Shown here piece by piece: positions 35,452 through 58,171 of a DNA stretch of 64,000 nucleotides. Numbering within the stretch: the first letter of the stretch is position 1; every line of letters begins with the position of its first letter. The position numbers and the translations under genes are program-made. The DNA is taken from positions 124,781 to 188,780 of the forward strand of contig NZ_JAAOYW010000001.1 in the NCBI RefSeq assembly GCF_011761235.1. The letters are read 5' to 3'. This DNA is from Frigoribacterium faeni. GTDB lineage: Bacteria > Actinomycetota > Actinomycetes > Actinomycetales > Microbacteriaceae. The notes beneath the pieces are model-generated. The model made no database searches. It worked only from the letters and a program-made list of their open reading frames with translations, and was not told the DNA's origin.

Positions 35452-36240
35452 TCAGACGCCGACGTGGGACTCGAAGCGCACGATGCTGGCGAACTCGTCG
35501 ACGTCGAGGCTCGCGCCGCCGACGAGCGCGCCGTCGACGTTCGGCTCGCGCATGAACGACGCGATGTTGGACGACTTGACCGAACCGCCGTAGAGGATGC
35601 GGGTCGCGGCCGCCCGGTCGGCCCCGACGATCTCGACGAGCGCCTCGCGGAGAGCGGCACAGACCTGCTCGGCCTGGTCGGCCGTCGCGGCCTTGCCGGA
35701 GCCGATGGCCCAGACGGGCTCGTACGCGACGACGATCTCGGCCGTGGCCGGGACGTCGGCGAGGGAGGCGCGGAGCTGGGCGACGGGGACGGCGCTCGGA
35801 CCGTGCGTCTCCAGGTCGTCGGCCGTCTCGCCGACGCAGATCACGGGGACGAGGCCGTGGCGGTGGGCCGCCGCCACCTTGCTCGCGACGACGGAGTCGT
35901 CCTCGGCGTGCAGGGTGCGGCGCTCGGAGTGGCCGACGAGGACGTAGCGGACGTCGAGCTTCGCGAGCGACGCTCCGGAGACCTCGCCGGTGTACGCGCC
36001 GGAGTCGTGCGCCGACAGGTCCTGGGCGCCGAGCACGAGCGAGAGGCCGTCGGCGTCGAGCAGCGTCTGCACGCTGCGGAGGTCGGTGAAGGGCGGGAAG
36101 ACCGCCGCCTCGACGGACGAGTGGTCGTGCTTCGCGTCCTTGAGGCTCCAGGCGAGCTTCTGCACGAAGGCGATCGCCTGCAGGTGGTCGAGGTTCATCT
36201 TCCAGTTGCCGGCGATGAGGGGCGTGCGTGTGGTCACCAT
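35452..36240 (-). CDS. tpiA: triose-phosphate isomerase
   Basis: A 262-residue (beta/alpha)8 enzyme interconverting dihydroxyacetone phosphate and glyceraldehyde 3-phosphate. The N-terminus has IAGNWKMN with the substrate Lys. The catalytic His is in VLVGHSERR, and the catalytic Glu is in AYEPVWAIGSGKAAT with loop 6. GALVGGASLD binds the phosphate. An ATG at 36240 gives 262 residues. A GTG one codon later (36237) would overlap the pgk stop as GTGA; both fit. Confidence 0.97.
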   Translation of the reverse strand: MVTTRTPLIAGNWKMNLDHLQAIAFVQKLAWSLKDAKHDHSSVEAAVFPPFTDLRSVQTLLDADGLSLVLGAQDLSAHDSGAYTGEVSGASLAKLDVRYVLVGHSERRTLHAEDDSVVASKVAAAHRHGLVPVICVGETADDLETHGPSAVPVAQLRASLADVPATAEIVVAYEPVWAIGSGKAATADQAEQVCAALREALVEIVGADRAAATRILYGGSVKSSNIASFMREPNVDGALVGGASLDVDEFASIVRFESHVGV

Positions 36241-37445
36241 CCGAGGACCTCCAGTCCGGGGAGTCGTTTGCCCTCGAGGAACTCGAGGCTGGCTCCACCA
36301 CCGGTGGAGATGTGGCCGAACTGGTCGTCGTCGAAGCCGAGGGCACGGACGGCCGCGGCCGAGTCCCCTCCCCCGACGACGCCCAGTCCGTCGACGCGCG
36401 TCAGCGCGTCGGCGACCGTCTTCGTGCCGTGGGCGAAGGCGTCGAACTCGAAGACCCCCATGGGCCCGTTCCAGAAGACCGTCTTCGACGCCGCGACGAT
36501 CTCGGCGAAGCGCGCCGCGGTGTCCGGGCCGATGTCGAGGCCGATGGCGCCCTCGCCGAGGTCGGACGTCTCGATGCCGTCGGCGGGGACGACGGCGTGG
36601 TCGGCGTCCGCGGAGAAGGCCGAGGCGACGACGACGTCGGTGGGCAGCACGATCTGGACCCCCCGGTCGGCGGCGTCGGCGAGGTACCCCTGCACCCGCT
36701 CGATCTGGTCCTTCTCGAGGAGGCTGCCCCCGACGGCGTGGCCCTGCGCGGCGAGGAACGTGAAGAGCATCCCGCCGCCGACGAGCAGCGAGTCGACGCG
36801 CGGCAGCAGGTGCTCGATGACCCCGAGCTTGTCGGACACCTTCGAGCCGCCGAGCACCACGGTGTACGGACGCTCGGGCGTCTCGGTGAGCTTCTCGAGG
36901 ACGGCGAGCTCGGACTCGATCAGCGAGCCCGCGGCGCTCGGCAGCAGCTGCGGCAGCTCGTAGACGCTGGCCTGCTCCCGGTGGACGACGCCGAAGCCGT
37001 CGGAGACGAACAGGTCACCGTGGGCGGCGAGCTGCTCGGCGAACGCACGTCGCTCGTCCGCGTCCTTCGAGGTCTCGGCCGGGCTGAAGCGGAGGTTCTC
37101 GAGGACGACCACCTGTCCGTCGGCCAGGCCGGCCACCGCCTCCTCGGCCTCGTCGCCGACCGTCGACGGGAGGAACGAGACGTCGGCGTCGAGCAGCTCG
37201 CCGAGGCGCTCGGCGACGGGGCGGAGGCTGTACTCGGCCACGGGCTCGCCGTCGGGTCGCCCGAGGTGCGAGACGACCACGACGCGGGCGCCGTCGGCCA
37301 CGAGGGACTGCAGGGTGCCGACGGAGGCGCGGACGCGGCCGTCGTCGGTGATCACGCCGTCCTTGAGCGGGACGTTGAGGTCGCACCGGACGATCACGCG
37401 CTTGCCCGACGTCGAGCCGAGGGACTCGAGGGTTCGGAGGGTCAT
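36234..37445 (-). CDS. pgk: phosphoglycerate kinase
   Basis: A 403-residue glycolytic kinase making ATP from 1,3-bisphosphoglycerate. The N-terminal substrate domain has VIVRCDLNVPLKDG and HLGRPDGE. The C-terminal nucleotide domain has GGSKVSDKLGV, the hinge TVFWNGPMGVFE and VVGGGDSAAAV. The ATG at 37445 is preferred to an ATG three codons earlier because AGAGAA lies at the proper distance. An intercistronic hairpin sits between gap and pgk. It overlaps tpiA at its 3' end. Confidence 0.96.
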   Translation of the reverse strand: MTLRTLESLGSTSGKRVIVRCDLNVPLKDGVITDDGRVRASVGTLQSLVADGARVVVVSHLGRPDGEPVAEYSLRPVAERLGELLDADVSFLPSTVGDEAEEAVAGLADGQVVVLENLRFSPAETSKDADERRAFAEQLAAHGDLFVSDGFGVVHREQASVYELPQLLPSAAGSLIESELAVLEKLTETPERPYTVVLGGSKVSDKLGVIEHLLPRVDSLLVGGGMLFTFLAAQGHAVGGSLLEKDQIERVQGYLADAADRGVQIVLPTDVVVASAFSADADHAVVPADGIETSDLGEGAIGLDIGPDTAARFAEIVAASKTVFWNGPMGVFEFDAFAHGTKTVADALTRVDGLGVVGGGDSAAAVRALGFDDDQFGHISTGGGASLEFLEGKRLPGLEVLGW

Positions 37446-37483
37446 GGCACTCATTTCTCTGGGGAGGGTCGTTGCAGTGACGA

Positions 37484-37516
37484 GGAGGCGGCCAGGCCGA
37501 GGGCCTGACCGCCTCC
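37484..37516 (-). terminator. intercistronic hairpin between gap and pgk
   Basis: A 15-base-pair stem (37484-37498 with 37502-37516), loop GAG, whose single mismatch is a G-U pair on the minus-strand RNA. It lies in the 94-base gap between the gap stop and the pgk start. It could be a partial terminator or an RNA-stabilising or processing site. Confidence 0.6.
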
Positions 37517-37539
37517 GGGGTCGATCGTGGTGCCGGTGC

Positions 37540-38559
<1,020 letters not shown>

Positions 38560-52762: not shown

Positions 52763-52800
52763 CGGGGCGCCGCGTCGACCGGGGTCGACGCGGCGCCCCG
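52763..52800 (-). terminator. hairpin terminator of the PTS operon
   Basis: A perfect 17-base-pair stem (52763-52779 with 52784-52800) with loop CGGG, just after ptsH. It ends the operon that begins at the deoR-type gene. Confidence 0.85.
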
Positions 52801-52815
52801 CGGGACGGGACCGTG

Positions 52816-53085
52816 CTACTCGGCGTCGAGGTCGGTCTCGAGCAGCGTCGCGAGCTCGTCGAGGGCCGCGTCGGCGTTGTCGCCCTCGGTCGCGAGGACG
52901 ACCTCGTCGCCGTGGCCGATGCCGAGCGAGAGCACGCCGAGGATGCTGGCGGCGTTGACGCTCTTGCCGGCGGGCGAGGTGAGCGTGACCTTCGCGCCGC
53001 TCTTGCCCGCTGCCTGGCTGAACAGCGAGGCGGGGCGCGCGTGCAGGCCGACGCTCGAGGCGATGGTGACGGTGCGTTCTGGCAT
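52816..53085 (-). CDS. ptsH: phosphocarrier protein HPr
   Basis: An 89-residue phosphocarrier that passes phosphate from EI to the PTS EIIA proteins. The active-site His15 is in VGLHARPAS, and Ser47 in AASILGVLSLGIG aligns with the regulatory Ser46 of Firmicutes. CAAGGAGAAG lies before the ATG. HPr here is the last gene of the polyol PTS operon, after a 58-base gap from the dehydrogenase. EI is not in the window. If this is the only HPr gene, its expression would be tied to the DeoR regulator. Confidence 0.95.
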   Translation of the reverse strand: MPERTVTIASSVGLHARPASLFSQAAGKSGAKVTLTSPAGKSVNAASILGVLSLGIGHGDEVVLATEGDNADAALDELATLLETDLDAE

Positions 53086-53143
53086 TTCTTCTCCTTGGTC
53101 GGGACCGGTCTGGTCGGGGTGCGGGCCGGGGCCCGGGGCTGTG

Positions 53144-54208
53144 TCAGTCGTGCGCGTGCGGCTCGACGGTCACCTTGATGGCCTCGCCGCTGGCGATGGC
53201 CTCGAGGGCGTCGTGCAGGCGCTCGAGAGGGAAGCTGTGGGTGACGAGGTCGGCGACGACCACCTCGCCCGAGGCGATGAGCCGGAGGGCCTCGCGGTTG
53301 TGCGCCGGGCTCGACCCGTTCACGCCCACGACGGTCAGCTCACGGTAGTGCACGAGGTTCGAGTCGATGCTGATCATCGAGTCGCCGCGGGCCAGGCCCC
53401 CGAAGAGGCTGAGCCGCCCGCCCGGCGCGAGCAGGGCGAGCGCCCCCTCCTGGGCGGGGCGGGAGGCCGCGGCCGTGACGACGACGTCGACGCCGAGACC
53501 GCCGGAGGCGGCGCGGACCTGGTCGAGGACGCCCTGACGGTCCGTCCCCGCCTCCACCGCGATCGCCAGGTCGGGCCGGACCAGGGCGGCGGCCCGCTCG
53601 AGGCGCTCCGCGTTCGCGTCGAGGAGGAACACCTGCCGGGCTCCCCTCGCCCGGGCCAGCCGCACGTGCATGCAGCCGATCGGGCCGGAGCCGATCACGA
53701 GGACGCTGTCGCCCTCGCCGACCCGGGCGAGCTCCTGGCCGTTCAGGACGCAGGCGAGGGGCTCGACGAGCGATGCCTCGACGGACGTCACGTGGTCGGG
53801 GACGCGGTTGACGCCGTCGACGGCCAGGACGGCGGCGGGGACCACCATGTACTCGGCGAAGCCCCCGGGGTACTGGTAGCCGATGCTCGTCTGACGGGGG
53901 CACACGCTCGGTCGCCCGGCGAGGCACACCTCGCACGTGCCGCACGGGACCGCCGCGATGACCTGGACACGGTCGCCCGGGACCCAGCCGTCGACGTCCT
54001 CCCCGACCTCGACCACCGTCCCGGCGACCTCGTGGCCCATGACCTGCGGGCCCGTCATGTTGGGGTGGCCCGACCGGAGGATCTTGAGGTCGGTGCCGCA
54101 GGCGGAGCAGTTGTCGACACGGAGGAGCAGCTCACCGCGAGCGGCCCCGGGCGTCGTCACGTCGTCGAGACGCACGTCACCCGGGGCCCACCACTTCGCT
54201 GCTCTCAC
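53144..54208 (-). CDS. zinc-dependent MDR dehydrogenase (polyol or polyol-phosphate dehydrogenase-like)
   Basis: A 354-residue medium-chain alcohol dehydrogenase. Catalytic zinc ligands are Cys37 (CSACGTD), His59 and Glu60 (MGHE). Structural zinc ligands are Cys89, Cys92, Cys95 and Cys103. The Rossmann motif is VIGSGPIGCMHVRLA. Relatives include sorbitol, galactitol-1-phosphate (GatD) and threonine dehydrogenases. In the PTS operon it likely oxidises the imported polyol phosphate, replacing MtlD. The GTG start at 54208 follows the EIIA stop by 19 bases. Confidence 0.85.
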   Translation of the reverse strand: MRAAKWWAPGDVRLDDVTTPGAARGELLLRVDNCSACGTDLKILRSGHPNMTGPQVMGHEVAGTVVEVGEDVDGWVPGDRVQVIAAVPCGTCEVCLAGRPSVCPRQTSIGYQYPGGFAEYMVVPAAVLAVDGVNRVPDHVTSVEASLVEPLACVLNGQELARVGEGDSVLVIGSGPIGCMHVRLARARGARQVFLLDANAERLERAAALVRPDLAIAVEAGTDRQGVLDQVRAASGGLGVDVVVTAAASRPAQEGALALLAPGGRLSLFGGLARGDSMISIDSNLVHYRELTVVGVNGSSPAHNREALRLIASGEVVVADLVTHSFPLERLHDALEAIASGEAIKVTVEPHAHD

Positions 54209-54227
54209 GCGGAGACCGTGCCGCCCG

Positions 54228-54692
54228 TCACTCGTCGTCGTCGGTCGACGCGAGCAGCTCGTACACCTCGGCGGTCGTCGTGGCGCCGCGCAGGGCGGCG
54301 GCCGCGTCCGGGTCCATGAGGATGCTGGCGAGCTGGCTGAGGATCGCGATGTGGCCGTTGCCGGCCGCGGCGATCCCCACGGCGACCGAGACCTCGTTGC
54401 CGTCCCAGTCGACCGGGGTCGGGAAGCGGAGCACGACGAGCGCGTCCTTCTTCACCGAGTCCTTGCCGGCGAGGGTGCCGTGCGGGATGGCCACGCCCTC
54501 GCCCACGTAGGTCGAGACCGAGTTCTCGCGCTCGAACATCGCGTCGACGTACGACTCGTCGATCGCGCCTGCCTCGATGAGCGCCTGGCCGGCGGCCCGG
54601 ATGGCCTCGTCACGGCTGGCGGCCTTCTCGTCGAGGCGGATGGAGGACTCGGCGAGGAGAGCGGTCAGCTCGGGTGCCTGCTGGTCGGCCAT
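54228..54692 (-). CDS. PTS mannitol/fructose-type EIIA protein
   Basis: A 154-residue EIIA domain of the fructose-mannitol family. It takes phosphate from HPr on His71 (VAIPHGTLAGKD) and gives it to EIIB. IGIAAAGNGHIAILSQLA follows, close to the mannitol EIIA (MtlF) branch. It is a separate polypeptide, coded two bases after the EIIB gene. The EIIC-EIIB-EIIA order on three proteins points to a mannitol-like system. Confidence 0.92.
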   Translation of the reverse strand: MADQQAPELTALLAESSIRLDEKAASRDEAIRAAGQALIEAGAIDESYVDAMFERENSVSTYVGEGVAIPHGTLAGKDSVKKDALVVLRFPTPVDWDGNEVSVAVGIAAAGNGHIAILSQLASILMDPDAAAALRGATTTAEVYELLASTDDDE

Positions 54693-54694
54693 CG

Positions 54695-55003
54695 TCAGAC
54701 CTCGACCGTCGAGCCGTCCTGGATCGCCTTGACGACCTTGGCGACGGCGGGGTCGCCCATGAACAGCTGGAAGGGCACGACGGGGATGTTCGGCACGACG
54801 CCGCGGGCACGCTCGGCGAGGTTGTTCTGCGTGACGACCACGTCGGCGTCGGACGGGATGTCGGCGACGGGCGAGTGCTCGACGGTGACGCCGCTCTTCT
54901 TGAGCTGCTTCTTGAGGGTCGAGGCCAGCATCACGCTGCTGCCCATGCCCGCGTCGCACGCGACGATGAGCTTCTTGATCGAGGAACCGTCGAGGGTTGC
55001 CAT
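54695..55003 (-). CDS. PTS mannitol-type EIIB protein
   Basis: A 102-residue EIIB domain of the mannitol branch. The phosphocysteine Cys16 is in VACDAGMGSSVM, the hallmark of MtlA-type IIB. It accepts phosphate from EIIA and passes it to the sugar bound by EIIC. It is coded between the EIIC and EIIA genes as a free protein instead of being fused to EIIC as in E. coli MtlA. Confidence 0.92.
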   Translation of the reverse strand: MATLDGSSIKKLIVACDAGMGSSVMLASTLKKQLKKSGVTVEHSPVADIPSDADVVVTQNNLAERARGVVPNIPVVPFQLFMGDPAVAKVVKAIQDGSTVEV

Positions 55004-55061
55004 GTCAGTCTCCTTGTGTCTCGGGGGTGGGGGGCCGACCGTGGTCGGCCCCCCGAGTCAA

Positions 55062-56222
55062 TCAGTTGGACGCTGTGGGCGCGGCCGTGCCCTTGCTGGT
55101 CGCCTTGTTGGCCGCGGTGGCGGCCTGGGCGTCGGCGAGCTGGCGAGCGGCGTCGTCCTCGGCCGCGGCCTCGCGCTTCTCCTTGCGGCCGAAGCCCATG
55201 AGGAACGAGCAGACCACGAACGAGACGGCGGCGGACAGCAGGATGCCGACGAGGATCAGCGGGAAGTCGCCGGGGGCGGAGACCAGCGCGTAGGCGATGA
55301 TGCTGCCGGGCGACGGGCTGGCGACCAGGCCGACGCCCGTGAGGAGGAAGAAGCCCACGCCCGTCGCGCCGCCGAGGACGGCGCCGATGAGGAGGATGGG
55401 CTTCATCAGCACGTACGGGAAGTAGATCTCGTGGATGCCGCCGAAGAACTGGACGATGATCGCCGCGGGCGCGGACGGACGGATGGCACGCGGTCCGAAG
55501 AACAGGAACGCGAGCAGGATGCCGAGGCCCGGACCGGGGTTCGACTCGAGCATGAAGAGGATCGACTTGCCCGAGTCCGCTGCCTGGTCGATGCCGAGCG
55601 GCGTGAGCACGCCCTGGTTGATGGCGTTGTTGAGGAACAGGATCTTCGCGGGCTCGATGAGCAGCGAGGCCAGCGGCAGCAGGCCGCGCTCGACCAGGAA
55701 GTCCACGCCGTTGCCGAGGATCGTCGTCAGGCCGGACGTCAGCGGCGCGATGCCGAAGTAGGCGCCGATGGCCATGGCCCCGCCGAAGATGCCGAGCGAG
55801 AAGTTGTTGACGAGCATCTCGAAGCCGGACTTGATGCGGCCGTCGAGGGCGCGGTCGAACTGCTTGAGCAGCAGCGCGGCCAGCGGGCCGACGATCATGG
55901 CGCCGAGGAACTGCGGCTTGTCGGTCGCGACGATGACGCCCATGACGGCGATCGAGGCGATGACGGCGCCGCGCTGCCCGTGGACCATGCGACCGCCGGT
56001 GTAGGCGATGAGGATCGGCAGCAGGTACAGGATGATCGGGTCGACCAGCGACGCGATCGTCTCGTTGGGGGTCCATCCGGTGGGGATGAACAGGGCCGTG
56101 ATGAGGCCCCAGGCGATGAACGCGCCGATGTTCGGCATGACCATGCCGGCGAGGAAGCCGCCGAAGCGCTGGACGCGCGCGCGGGCACCGGTGCCGGTGA
56201 CCGCGGGGGTGAATTCGGACAT
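55062..56222 (-). CDS. mtlA: PTS mannitol-type EIIC permease
   Basis: A 386-residue membrane permease of the mannitol PTS branch. The start region GGFLAGMVMPNIGAFIAWG and TALFIPTGW is characteristic of MtlA. GGIHEIYFPYVLMKP carries the conserved GIHE sugar-binding motif. About eight hydrophobic segments end near 335, followed by an Ala-rich charged tail in place of the EIIB domain. Mannitol is the most likely substrate by family; another hexitol or pentitol remains possible. Confidence 0.9.
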   Translation of the reverse strand: MSEFTPAVTGTGARARVQRFGGFLAGMVMPNIGAFIAWGLITALFIPTGWTPNETIASLVDPIILYLLPILIAYTGGRMVHGQRGAVIASIAVMGVIVATDKPQFLGAMIVGPLAALLLKQFDRALDGRIKSGFEMLVNNFSLGIFGGAMAIGAYFGIAPLTSGLTTILGNGVDFLVERGLLPLASLLIEPAKILFLNNAINQGVLTPLGIDQAADSGKSILFMLESNPGPGLGILLAFLFFGPRAIRPSAPAAIIVQFFGGIHEIYFPYVLMKPILLIGAVLGGATGVGFFLLTGVGLVASPSPGSIIAYALVSAPGDFPLILVGILLSAAVSFVVCSFLMGFGRKEKREAAAEDDAARQLADAQAATAANKATSKGTAAPTASN

Positions 56223-56244
56223 GAGAGCAGGTACTCCTTCGTAC

Positions 56245-57267
56245 TCAGTGGTGAGTCTGGGTGAGGGGGGTGGGCAGGGACGTGGTGCGTCGGGTGGAGA
56301 TCGAGGAGGCGGCGCCCGCGTCCCCGACGAGCGGGGCCGTCAGGTCGGGGTGCGCCACCAACGACGCCTCGGACGCGTCGAGGTCGTCGGGGCACGGGAC
56401 GGTGGTGCCGGGCAGCCGGGTGGCGGCGGCACCCCAGGTGAGGGCGGCGAGGAGAGCGTCGCGAGGGGCGCCTCCTGCGGTCTCGCTCGCCAGGTAGCCG
56501 GCGAGGAAGCTGTCGCCGGCGCCGACGGTGCTGCGCGGCACGTCGACGCGGGAGGTGCCGACGACCACGCCGTCGGGACCCACGAGGACGCCGCCCTCGG
56601 CCCCGAGGCTCACCAGCACGGTCGGGACGCCGGCGGCACGGACGGCCTCGGCCGCGGAGACGACGTCGGCGAGGGTCGCGAGGGTGCGGCCTGCGAGCTC
56701 GGCCAGCTCGGCGAGGTTCGGCTTGAGGAGGTCGGGACGGGCCTCGACCGCCGCGGACAGGGCGTCGCCGCTGGTGTCGACCGCGAGCCGGGCACCGCTC
56801 CGCCGGACGTCGGCGACGAACCGGGCGAAGGTGGCGGTGCTGATCTCCGGCGGCAGGCTGCCCGACACGACGACCCACGTCGCCGCCTCGGCCGTCGCGC
56901 GGACGACGGCCGTGATCGCGGTCAGGTCGTCGTGCCCGAGCGCGAGCCCGGGCTCGTTCAGCTTGGTCACGGTGCCGCCGGGCTCGGCCACGGTGAGGTT
57001 CGAGCGCGTCCGGCCCGAGACGGGCACGTAGCGGGCGCTCACGCCGGCCGCGTCGAGGAGGGCGCTGAGCTCGGCGCCCTCGCGTCCGCCGACCGGCAGG
57101 ACGGCGACGCTGTCCACGCCGTGCGCGGTCAGCGCGCGGGCGACGTTGACCCCCTTGCCTGCGGGCTCGAGGAGGGGCGCCCCCGTGCGCAGGACGTCGC
57201 CGCGGTCGAGGCGGTCGACCTCGACCGTGCGGTCGAGGCTGGGGTTGAGGGTGACGGTGACGATCAC
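56245..57267 (-). CDS. PfkB-family 1-phosphofructokinase-like kinase
   Basis: A 340-residue PfkB kinase of the FruK/LacC branch. It starts VIVTVTLNPSLDRTVEVDRL, has PAGKGVNVAR (from residue 35) and the ATP-site GAGDS with Asp252 as catalytic base. FruK adds a phosphate to C6 of fructose 1-phosphate; LacC acts on tagatose 6-phosphate. Its place between DeoR and the PTS permease shows that a ketose phosphate is the pathway intermediate. The GTG start overlaps the DeoR stop as GTGA. The last ~25 residues are Ser/Thr-rich. Confidence 0.88.
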   Translation of the reverse strand: MIVTVTLNPSLDRTVEVDRLDRGDVLRTGAPLLEPAGKGVNVARALTAHGVDSVAVLPVGGREGAELSALLDAAGVSARYVPVSGRTRSNLTVAEPGGTVTKLNEPGLALGHDDLTAITAVVRATAEAATWVVVSGSLPPEISTATFARFVADVRRSGARLAVDTSGDALSAAVEARPDLLKPNLAELAELAGRTLATLADVVSAAEAVRAAGVPTVLVSLGAEGGVLVGPDGVVVGTSRVDVPRSTVGAGDSFLAGYLASETAGGAPRDALLAALTWGAAATRLPGTTVPCPDDLDASEASLVAHPDLTAPLVGDAGAASSISTRRTTSLPTPLTQTHH

Positions 57268-58025
57268 ACGATCACCACCCGGGGGCCGGAGCGCTCGACG
57301 TCGTCGGCGAGGTCGGCGTCGACGCCGCTGTCGGTGACGACGGTGTCGACCTCGGACAGCGGGGCGACGCGGGCGAAGTCCTCGCGGCCGAACTTCGAGT
57401 GGTCGGTGAGGATGACGGTGCGCCGGGAGGCCGCCATGAGGGCCTTCTTGACCCGGGCCTCGGCGAGGTCGGGCGTGGTCAGGCCCCTCTCGGCCGAGAG
57501 GCCGTTCGTGCCCATGAAGGCGACGTCGGCGAAGACCTCGGCGATCTGCGTGCGCGTCCACTCCCCCACGGCGGCGAGCGTGCGACCGCGGACGACGCCC
57601 CCGAGGAGGTGCAGGGTCACGTTGGGCCGGGACACGAGCACGTTGGCCACGGGCAGCGAGTGCGTCACCACGGTGAGCTCACGGTCGACGGGCAGCAGCT
57701 CGGCGAACCGCACCGTGGTCGTGCCGGCGTCGACGATGATCGAGCCGCCGTCGGGCAGCTCGTCGAGGGCGGCTCGGGCGATGCGCTCCTTCTCGCCGGC
57801 GGCGGAGCTCTGTCGGTCGGCGACGTGCGGCTCGATGCCGAGGCGCTCGACCGCGATGGCACCGCCGTGCACCCGCCGGAGGACCCCGCGCCGCTCGAGC
57901 GCGGTCAGGTCGCGCCGCACCGTCTCGGGCGTGACCGACAGCTCACGGGCCAGCCCGGCGACCTCGACACGGCCGCGCGTGCGCGCCGAGTCCAGGATCT
58001 GCTGGTGGCGCTCGGGAGCGTACAT
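57264..58025 (-). CDS. DeoR/GlpR-family transcriptional regulator
   Basis: A 253-residue repressor-type protein. The N-terminal winged helix is VEVAGLARELSVTPETVRRDLTALERRG, and the C-terminal DeoR sensor domain has VDAGTTTVRFAELL and LTDHSKFGREDFARVAPL. Such sensors bind sugar phosphates. It is the first gene of the seven-gene PTS operon and probably autoregulates it. An inverted repeat around the promoter is a candidate operator. The ATG is at 58025. Confidence 0.9.
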   Translation of the reverse strand: MYAPERHQQILDSARTRGRVEVAGLARELSVTPETVRRDLTALERRGVLRRVHGGAIAVERLGIEPHVADRQSSAAGEKERIARAALDELPDGGSIIVDAGTTTVRFAELLPVDRELTVVTHSLPVANVLVSRPNVTLHLLGGVVRGRTLAAVGEWTRTQIAEVFADVAFMGTNGLSAERGLTTPDLAEARVKKALMAASRRTVILTDHSKFGREDFARVAPLSEVDTVVTDSGVDADLADDVERSGPRVVIV

Positions 58026-58120
58026 GCGCGGAGACTCCGTCGTCAGTCGTGCGGCTCGCCCGGCCGCGAGGCCGGACGGGGAGAGCAGGGGGCGGGCAGT
58101 GCGGGAGATCGGGTGGTGCA

Positions 58121-58171
58121 GAACGGATGTTGTTCCGCGCTTATATAAGTCCGTTCCGTCCCGCCGGTCAA
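58121..58171 (-). promoter_or_regulatory. promoter and candidate DeoR operator of the PTS operon
   Basis: On the minus strand -35 TTGACC (58166-58171), a 17-base spacer and -10 TTATAT (58143-58148). An inverted repeat GAACGGA (58121-58127) and TCCGTTC (58150-58156), spaced by 22 bases, brackets the -10, and the perfect palindrome CTTATATAAG (58140-58149) lies between. Two GTTCCG copies also occur (58132, 58153). A repressor bound here would block the polymerase. Confidence 0.6.

Follow-up and report, generated by a model that had tools for sequence, protein, structure and literature searches.

A Mannitol-Type Phosphotransferase Operon in Frigoribacterium faeni and Its Probable Route through Fructose 1-Phosphate

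What does a mannitol-type phosphotransferase system (PTS) feed when its operon encodes, in place of mannitol-1-phosphate 5-dehydrogenase (MtlD), a zinc-dependent medium-chain dehydrogenase/reductase (MDR) and a 1-phosphofructokinase? The question is raised by a 64,000-nucleotide stretch of the Frigoribacterium faeni genome (Microbacteriaceae), referred to here as the window. Seven genes lie on its minus strand at 52816–58025, in the order fruR, fruK, EIIC, EIIB, EIIA, zinc MDR dehydrogenase, and ptsH, as a preliminary description made from the sequence alone had read them; none of the seven encodes MtlD, again in agreement with that description. Plants, fungi, and brown algae are rich in mannitol.

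On the evidence of sequence comparisons, we consider it likely that the operon encodes a mannitol catabolic route through fructose 1-phosphate, mannitol being the likeliest polyol. EIIC, EIIB, and EIIA would bring mannitol into the cell as mannitol 1-phosphate, the phosphate being donated by HPr (the ptsH product), and the zinc MDR would oxidize mannitol 1-phosphate at C2, beside the phosphate, to fructose 1-phosphate. From this product FruK would make fructose 1,6-bisphosphate, which would pass into lower glycolysis with no need of 6-phosphofructokinase. The signal sensed by FruR is probably fructose 1-phosphate. Because D-mannitol is symmetric, oxidation at the far end, as by MtlD, gives fructose 6-phosphate instead. 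Substrate, product, and regulation we infer from the gene content, conservation, partner statistics, and trees reported below.

Among 396 Actinomycetota genomes sampled evenly, a mannitol EIIC was found at E 1e-60 in 36. MtlD, at the same threshold, is present in 14 of the 36 and adjoins EIIC in 13, the exception being the window's own genome; tblastn found no MDR or FruK in the 12–16.5-kb stretches around all 13 EIIC–MtlD loci. The 22 EIIC genomes without MtlD comprise 11 with a window-type MDR beside EIIC (51–61% identity), 7 with a distant, SorE-type MDR and FruK, and 4 with neither. FruK is encoded nearby at 8 of the 12 window-type MDR loci (the window counted), at all 7 SorE-type loci, and at none of the 13 MtlD loci; the contrast, 15/19 versus 0/13, has a Fisher p of 7e-6, ignoring kinship. 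Oxidation at C2 to a ketose 1-phosphate, followed by phosphorylation by FruK to a 1,6-bisphosphate, had been proposed in the preliminary description, and this distribution of FruK, together with the 47 of 49 genomes without a fructose EIIC over cut-off described below, supports the proposal, although it does not prove it.

The seven SorE-type loci (L213, L214, L215, L223, L225, L226, and L227) combine an MtlA IICBA protein and FruK with a homologue of Escherichia coli SorE, 47–49% identical over full length in six of them and 50% identical over 151 residues in the seventh, which is cut by a contig end. These enzymes share only 27–29% identity with the window MDR. The one FruK of this lineage that was scanned scores 318.9 bits against the 1-phosphofructokinase cut-off of 292. 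The lineage could, at a guess, be of Coriobacteriia origin. SorE may also accept fructose 1-phosphate. The known reaction of SorE is the reduction of L-sorbose 1-phosphate to sorbitol 6-phosphate (PMC12817954, in the part available), which is the same kind of chemistry as the conversion of fructose 1-phosphate to mannitol 1-phosphate. It is on balance probable that mannitol-1-phosphate 2-dehydrogenase is a new activity whose pathway is widespread in Actinomycetota, brings mannitol into the fructose regulon, and avoids both fructose 6-phosphate and 6-phosphofructokinase, having arisen at least twice, with the MDR family of the window and with a SorE-type enzyme.

Conservation is strong among the closest relatives of the window MDR. 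Seven aligned MDR orthologues, used as the query of a contig scan, gave at least 465 confirmed relatives, of which the best 80 were analyzed; as top scorers, these form a biased sample. EII genes occur at the same locus as the MDR in all 80, accompanied by FruK in 72, FruR in 74, HPr in 76, FruA in 1, and MtlD in none. All seven operon genes are found at 69 of these loci, and their order and strand are identical at 53. In five of the eight loci without FruK (L132, L170, L181, L187, and L205), no more than 2.4 kb separates the MDR from a contig start, so that fruK would be cut off; in the other three (L167, L173, and L193) fruK is not in the stretch examined. The hosts include Streptosporangiaceae, Thermomonosporaceae, Micromonosporaceae, Pseudonocardiaceae, Nocardiopsidaceae, Catenulisporaceae, Cellulomonadaceae, and Microbacteriaceae. 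One host, Streptosporangium subroseum (L139), has neither an MtlD nor a FruA that passes its cut-off. Recurrence of the locus in the best 80 relatives rules out a quirk of a single strain, and our verdict is that of a real and widespread variant of mannitol catabolism, one that has probably gone uncharacterized.

Whether mannitol is in fact the substrate can be approached through the transporter. In a quick tree of 85 selected EIIC rows, the EIICs of MDR operons fall mostly into one clade, a neighbor of the MtlD-linked clade, and those of L201 and L207–L209, also paired with MDR, fall within the MtlD-linked clade itself. This placement points to mannitol, and dehydrogenase partners have been swapped on EIICs whose substrate probably stayed the same. 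The loci L207–L209, from one genus of the same class, encode a fused IICBA, a FruR-like regulator, and a divergent MDR, and have no FruK nearby. The EIIC tree bears on the best of the competing explanations, which we regard as unlikely: that the substrate of the PTS and MDR is a different polyol, such as D-arabitol, sorbitol, galactitol, or one of the rarer hexitols, from which another ketose phosphate is formed for the FruK-like kinase. The separate clade of most MDR-linked EIICs would fit such a shift, as would the fact that the window MDR scores over cut-off for no named equivalog; against it stand the mannitol type of the EIIC, the MDR-paired EIICs inside the MtlD-linked clade, and 12 genomes of the window's own genus that retain this EII (complete in 11) without MDR or FruK at the locus, each with a Mannitol_dh_C match.

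The 12 belong to a set of 16 genomes of the genus, 4 of which have the MDR without FruA and 12 FruA without the MDR. At the site of the operon FruR and EIIC are retained in all 12, and EIIB, EIIA, and HPr in 11, the remaining locus (L108) being cut by a contig end; neither MDR nor FruK is present there, and the Mannitol_dh_C match lies in a frame of 380–386 amino acids. The two MDR-bearing members of the genus placed in the EIIC tree are sisters, and for this reason the mutual exclusion of MDR and FruA in the genus is probably one event and should not be read as independent data. Outside the genus, 13 MDR loci of Microbacteriaceae occupy the same polA/DUF885-protein/rpsA site as in the window (polA is visible at 12 of them, and at L137 only the downstream side; the MDR was what they were found by, so that the set favors MDR-bearing loci), and one genome, G031 (L116), has EII at the polA/rpsA site without MDR. 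MDR and FruK were thus probably ancestral at this site in the family; given the 13 same-site loci, their recent insertion was judged less likely.

Whole-genome searches covered 49 of the 80 operon-bearing genomes. MtlD scores over cut-off in 6 and not in 43, of which 14 give a weaker match (E of at most 0.001, each below 94 bits against a cut-off of 356). A fructose EIIC is over cut-off in two, Nocardiopsis eucommiae and Cellulomonas iranensis, with one further match of 24 bits, and in none of the other 47. FruK is found in all 49 at E 1e-40 or better, and over cut-off in 43, once in each; further, weaker PfkB matches occur in 28. With 47 of 49 genomes lacking FruA over cut-off, no other PTS that would supply FruK with fructose 1-phosphate is evident in most. 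By subtraction, neither MtlD nor FruA passes its cut-off in 41 genomes, and in these an MDR forming fructose 1-phosphate, if that is its product, would serve both a mannitol PTS without MtlD and a FruK without FruA.

The same counts bear on a second alternative, in which the MDR stands in for MtlD without being its orthologue, forming fructose 6-phosphate, and FruK is a fellow traveler for fructose. It would supply the mannitol-phosphate dehydrogenase that some enzyme must provide in the 43 genomes without MtlD over cut-off. It leaves FruK with no evident source of substrate in the 47 FruA-less genomes, however, and the presence of FruK at MDR and SorE-type loci but at no MtlD locus unexplained; we think it quite improbable. 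In a quick tree the FruA-linked FruKs of actinobacteria interleave with the operon FruKs, E. coli FruK being a long branch outside them. At each of L201, L221, and L222 a single FruK shares its cluster with FruA as well as with the MDR operon, as if FruA and MDR both made its substrate. The window FruK sits among the operon FruKs of other Microbacteriaceae, and its displacement from the FruA operon of congeners was rejected, four FruA-linked FruKs of congeners forming a separate clade in the quick tree.

Genes for fruR, fruK, and ptsH are typical of fructose operons and stand beside FruA in L240 and L241, and the operon tends to occur where FruA is missing, but the suggestion that the EII has turned into a fructose PTS feeding FruK, with the MDR running in reverse to make mannitol 1-phosphate on the way to an osmolyte, or forming a side branch, is the least probable of the three, given an EIIC that remains mannitol-type and the company it keeps in the 22 MtlD-less EIIC genomes (window-type MDR in 11, SorE-type in 7 more).

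Several observations weigh against the fructose 1-phosphate route. The six MtlD-positive genomes (L126, L127, L135, L140, L148, and L154) are all Microbacteriaceae, and are every member of that family among the 49. Both FruA and the MDR are present in G045, G048, G100, G107, G361, and G376. Genome G048, a fragmented assembly, has an MDR orthologue (54%) and no mannitol EIIC match, with only an EIIC-like fragment of 25 codons at a contig edge. Four of the 12 window-type MDR loci in the even sample (L207–L210) have no FruK in the stretch examined, and four loci (L206, L216, L220, and L224) have a mannitol EIIC with no MtlD, MDR, or FruK nearby, their genomes giving no MtlD match at E 1e-60. The window FruK exceeds its family cut-off by 0.2 bits, a marginal score. 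The window MDR scores over cut-off for no NCBIfam equivalog, is 27–29% identical to SorE, GatD, and Tdh, and is not near any characterized phosphohexitol dehydrogenase among those compared. Finally, the preliminary description had held that its reading would fail if an mtlD gene elsewhere were the one induced by mannitol; the operon itself has none, but an mtlD gene does exist elsewhere in the genome, where it could oxidize mannitol 1-phosphate, and a second mannitol-type PTS is encoded there as well.

That gene, which rules out the simple absence of MtlD, is the only MtlD match in the 3.2-Mb genome. It lies at about 672 kb on contig C1, encodes a canonical MtlD of 379 amino acids (NF002652, 398.5 bits; cut-off 356), and is an orphan near ilvC and serA (L029). 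A relative, G021, has an MtlD homologue near serA and no mannitol EIIC match in its genome. Throughout the genus MtlD lies apart from the PTS, and this, together with its presence in G021, suggests another role for it, for example mannitol synthesis; mtlD has been linked to osmolyte synthesis in related bacteria (PMC12422013, in the portion available). The second PTS, a fused IICBA, belongs to a cluster on contig C2 at about 409.8–415.3 kb (L028:1756–7328), with a ROK regulator, an epimerase of the RPE/AlsE kind, a short-chain dehydrogenase/reductase resembling sorbitol-6-phosphate dehydrogenase, and a 6-phospho-3-hexuloisomerase (TIGR03127, 167.9 bits; cut-off 160). From this content the cluster may specify a hexitol pathway of an unusual kind, with the phosphate of a 3-hexulose or of allulose as intermediate. 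It recurs in G004 and L117. The window's genome gave no match to a fructose EIIC.

The proposed mannitol-1-phosphate 2-dehydrogenase (fructose-1-phosphate forming) is the zinc MDR at 53144–54208 on the minus strand, in which PF08240 and PF00107 are over cut-off. Its zinc ligands are presumably C37, H59, E60, and E149, plus cysteines 89, 92, 95, and 103, by the roles of these residues in MDR enzymes; Asp197 follows the second Rossmann strand, where an Asp usually means NAD. The AlphaFold model (pLDDT 92.4) matches best the putative dehydrogenase 4ej6 (VIA Z 44.4), followed by sorbitol dehydrogenase 3qe3 and ketose reductase 1e3j (Z 43.4; 1.9–2.0 Å over 340–342 residues), with which threonine dehydrogenase 2dq4 ties (Z 43.3). 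The modeled fold is consistent with the polyol branch of the zinc MDRs, the near-tied scores singling out no one substrate. The window MDR falls well below the cut-offs of the profiles for galactitol-1-phosphate 5-dehydrogenase (GatD; NF007642, 122.4 bits against 550) and L-threonine 3-dehydrogenase (TIGR00692, 197.2 bits against 458.35), and at 27% identity it has no close full-length similarity to E. coli SorE. The pair His287-Tyr288 is common to the window MDR and SorE and missing from GatD and Tdh; it also occurs in some weaker MDR relatives (L017–L020), and as a link between MDR and SorE it is suggestive only.

The other genes of the operon, all on the minus strand, were identified as follows. 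FruR, a DeoR-family regulator, is encoded at 57264–58025 (DeoRC PF00455, 180.3 bits; HTH_DeoR PF08220, 54.9 bits), and FruK, a 1-phosphofructokinase of the PfkB family, at 56245–57267 with a GTG start at 57267. The FruK-like kinase of the preliminary description was borne out by TIGR03828 (292.2 bits; cut-off 292), by a GAGDS motif, and by the quick tree. The mannitol-type EIIC (55062–56222; GGIHE at 261; placed by tree) scores 467.8 bits against TIGR00851 (mtlA), marginally below the cut-off of 468.4, which three congeners pass at 468.6. EIIB, mannitol type (54695–55003; PF02302, 58.2 bits), and EIIA, mannitol/fructose type (54228–54692, ATG at 54692; PF00359, 126.6 bits), carry the motifs ACDAGMGSS and IPHGT (the phospho-site) that had been read in them, and ptsH, the final gene (52816–53085), encodes the HPr phosphocarrier (PF00381, 92.4 bits; TIGR01003, 89.4 bits, cut-off 47.9). 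Counted from these starts, the intergenic gaps from fruR to ptsH are −4, 22, 58, 2, 19, and 58 bases, and a single operon is likely for this reason. The tpiA, pgk, and gap genes, also anticipated in the window, were found by motif only, at 35452–38544, about 14 kb from the operon.

A promoter/operator candidate lies at 58141–58171 on the minus strand, with TTGACC, about 18 bases, and TATATAA, and the core AACGGACTT between these −35 and −10 hexamers. The form A(A/T)CGG(A/G)CTT occurs upstream of fruR in all 21 Microbacteriaceae sequences checked, no farther off than about 200 bases (258 in the window), and is a candidate FruR-binding site. A related form, AAACGG(A/G)C, is present in L138, L139, L201, and L207; as an operator common to FruA loci it was rejected, none being found in L235–L238, and its exact form is missing from the window too.

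If the route is as proposed, pathway calls based on MtlD overlook many actinobacteria that use mannitol, and a large group of orthologous dehydrogenases without an NCBIfam equivalog name would gain a precise function. Glycolysis would be entered below 6-phosphofructokinase, the presence of fruR, fruK, and ptsH in a mannitol operon would be explained, and two MDR subfamilies that are only distantly related would have converged on one step. In the openly licensed literature, searched mostly at listing level, we found no description of a mannitol-1-phosphate 2-dehydrogenase step; nearest in print among what was found is the Pontimonas genome paper, which, in the part available, notes such an operon and does not mention the C2 route. 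Pontimonas salivibrio, in which the operon spans C3B54_111140–111147, is reported to grow on mannitol but not on fructose.

The operon resembles several known systems in part. As in mtlA-mtlD of E. coli, a mannitol-type EII would import and phosphorylate the polyol and a dehydrogenase would act next, but MtlD belongs to another dehydrogenase family and yields fructose 6-phosphate, whereas the window has a zinc MDR and FruK. The galactitol pathway (GatABC, GatD, and tagatose 6-phosphate kinase) likewise joins a PTS to a zinc MDR polyol-phosphate dehydrogenase and to a PfkB-family kinase that produces a ketose 1,6-bisphosphate; GatD oxidizes at C5 to a ketose 6-phosphate, and the window differs in its mannitol-type EII and in an MDR 29% identical to GatD. 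SorE of the L-sorbose pathway is an MDR-type enzyme that acts on the carbon beside a C1 phosphate, between a ketose 1-phosphate and a hexitol phosphate, but it works there as a reductase and is 27% identical to the window MDR. In Haloarcula hispanica, mannitol carbon also passes through fructose 1-phosphate to fructose 1,6-bisphosphate by 1-phosphofructokinase, although uptake is by an ABC transporter and free mannitol is oxidized to fructose before ketohexokinase acts, with no phosphorylated polyol (PMC11519228, in the portion available). In Streptomyces lividans, a zinc-binding dehydrogenase and 1-phosphofructokinase are both expressed more on mannitol; there, as the available part of PMC10731712 suggests, ABC uptake and oxidation to free fructose precede a fructose PTS.

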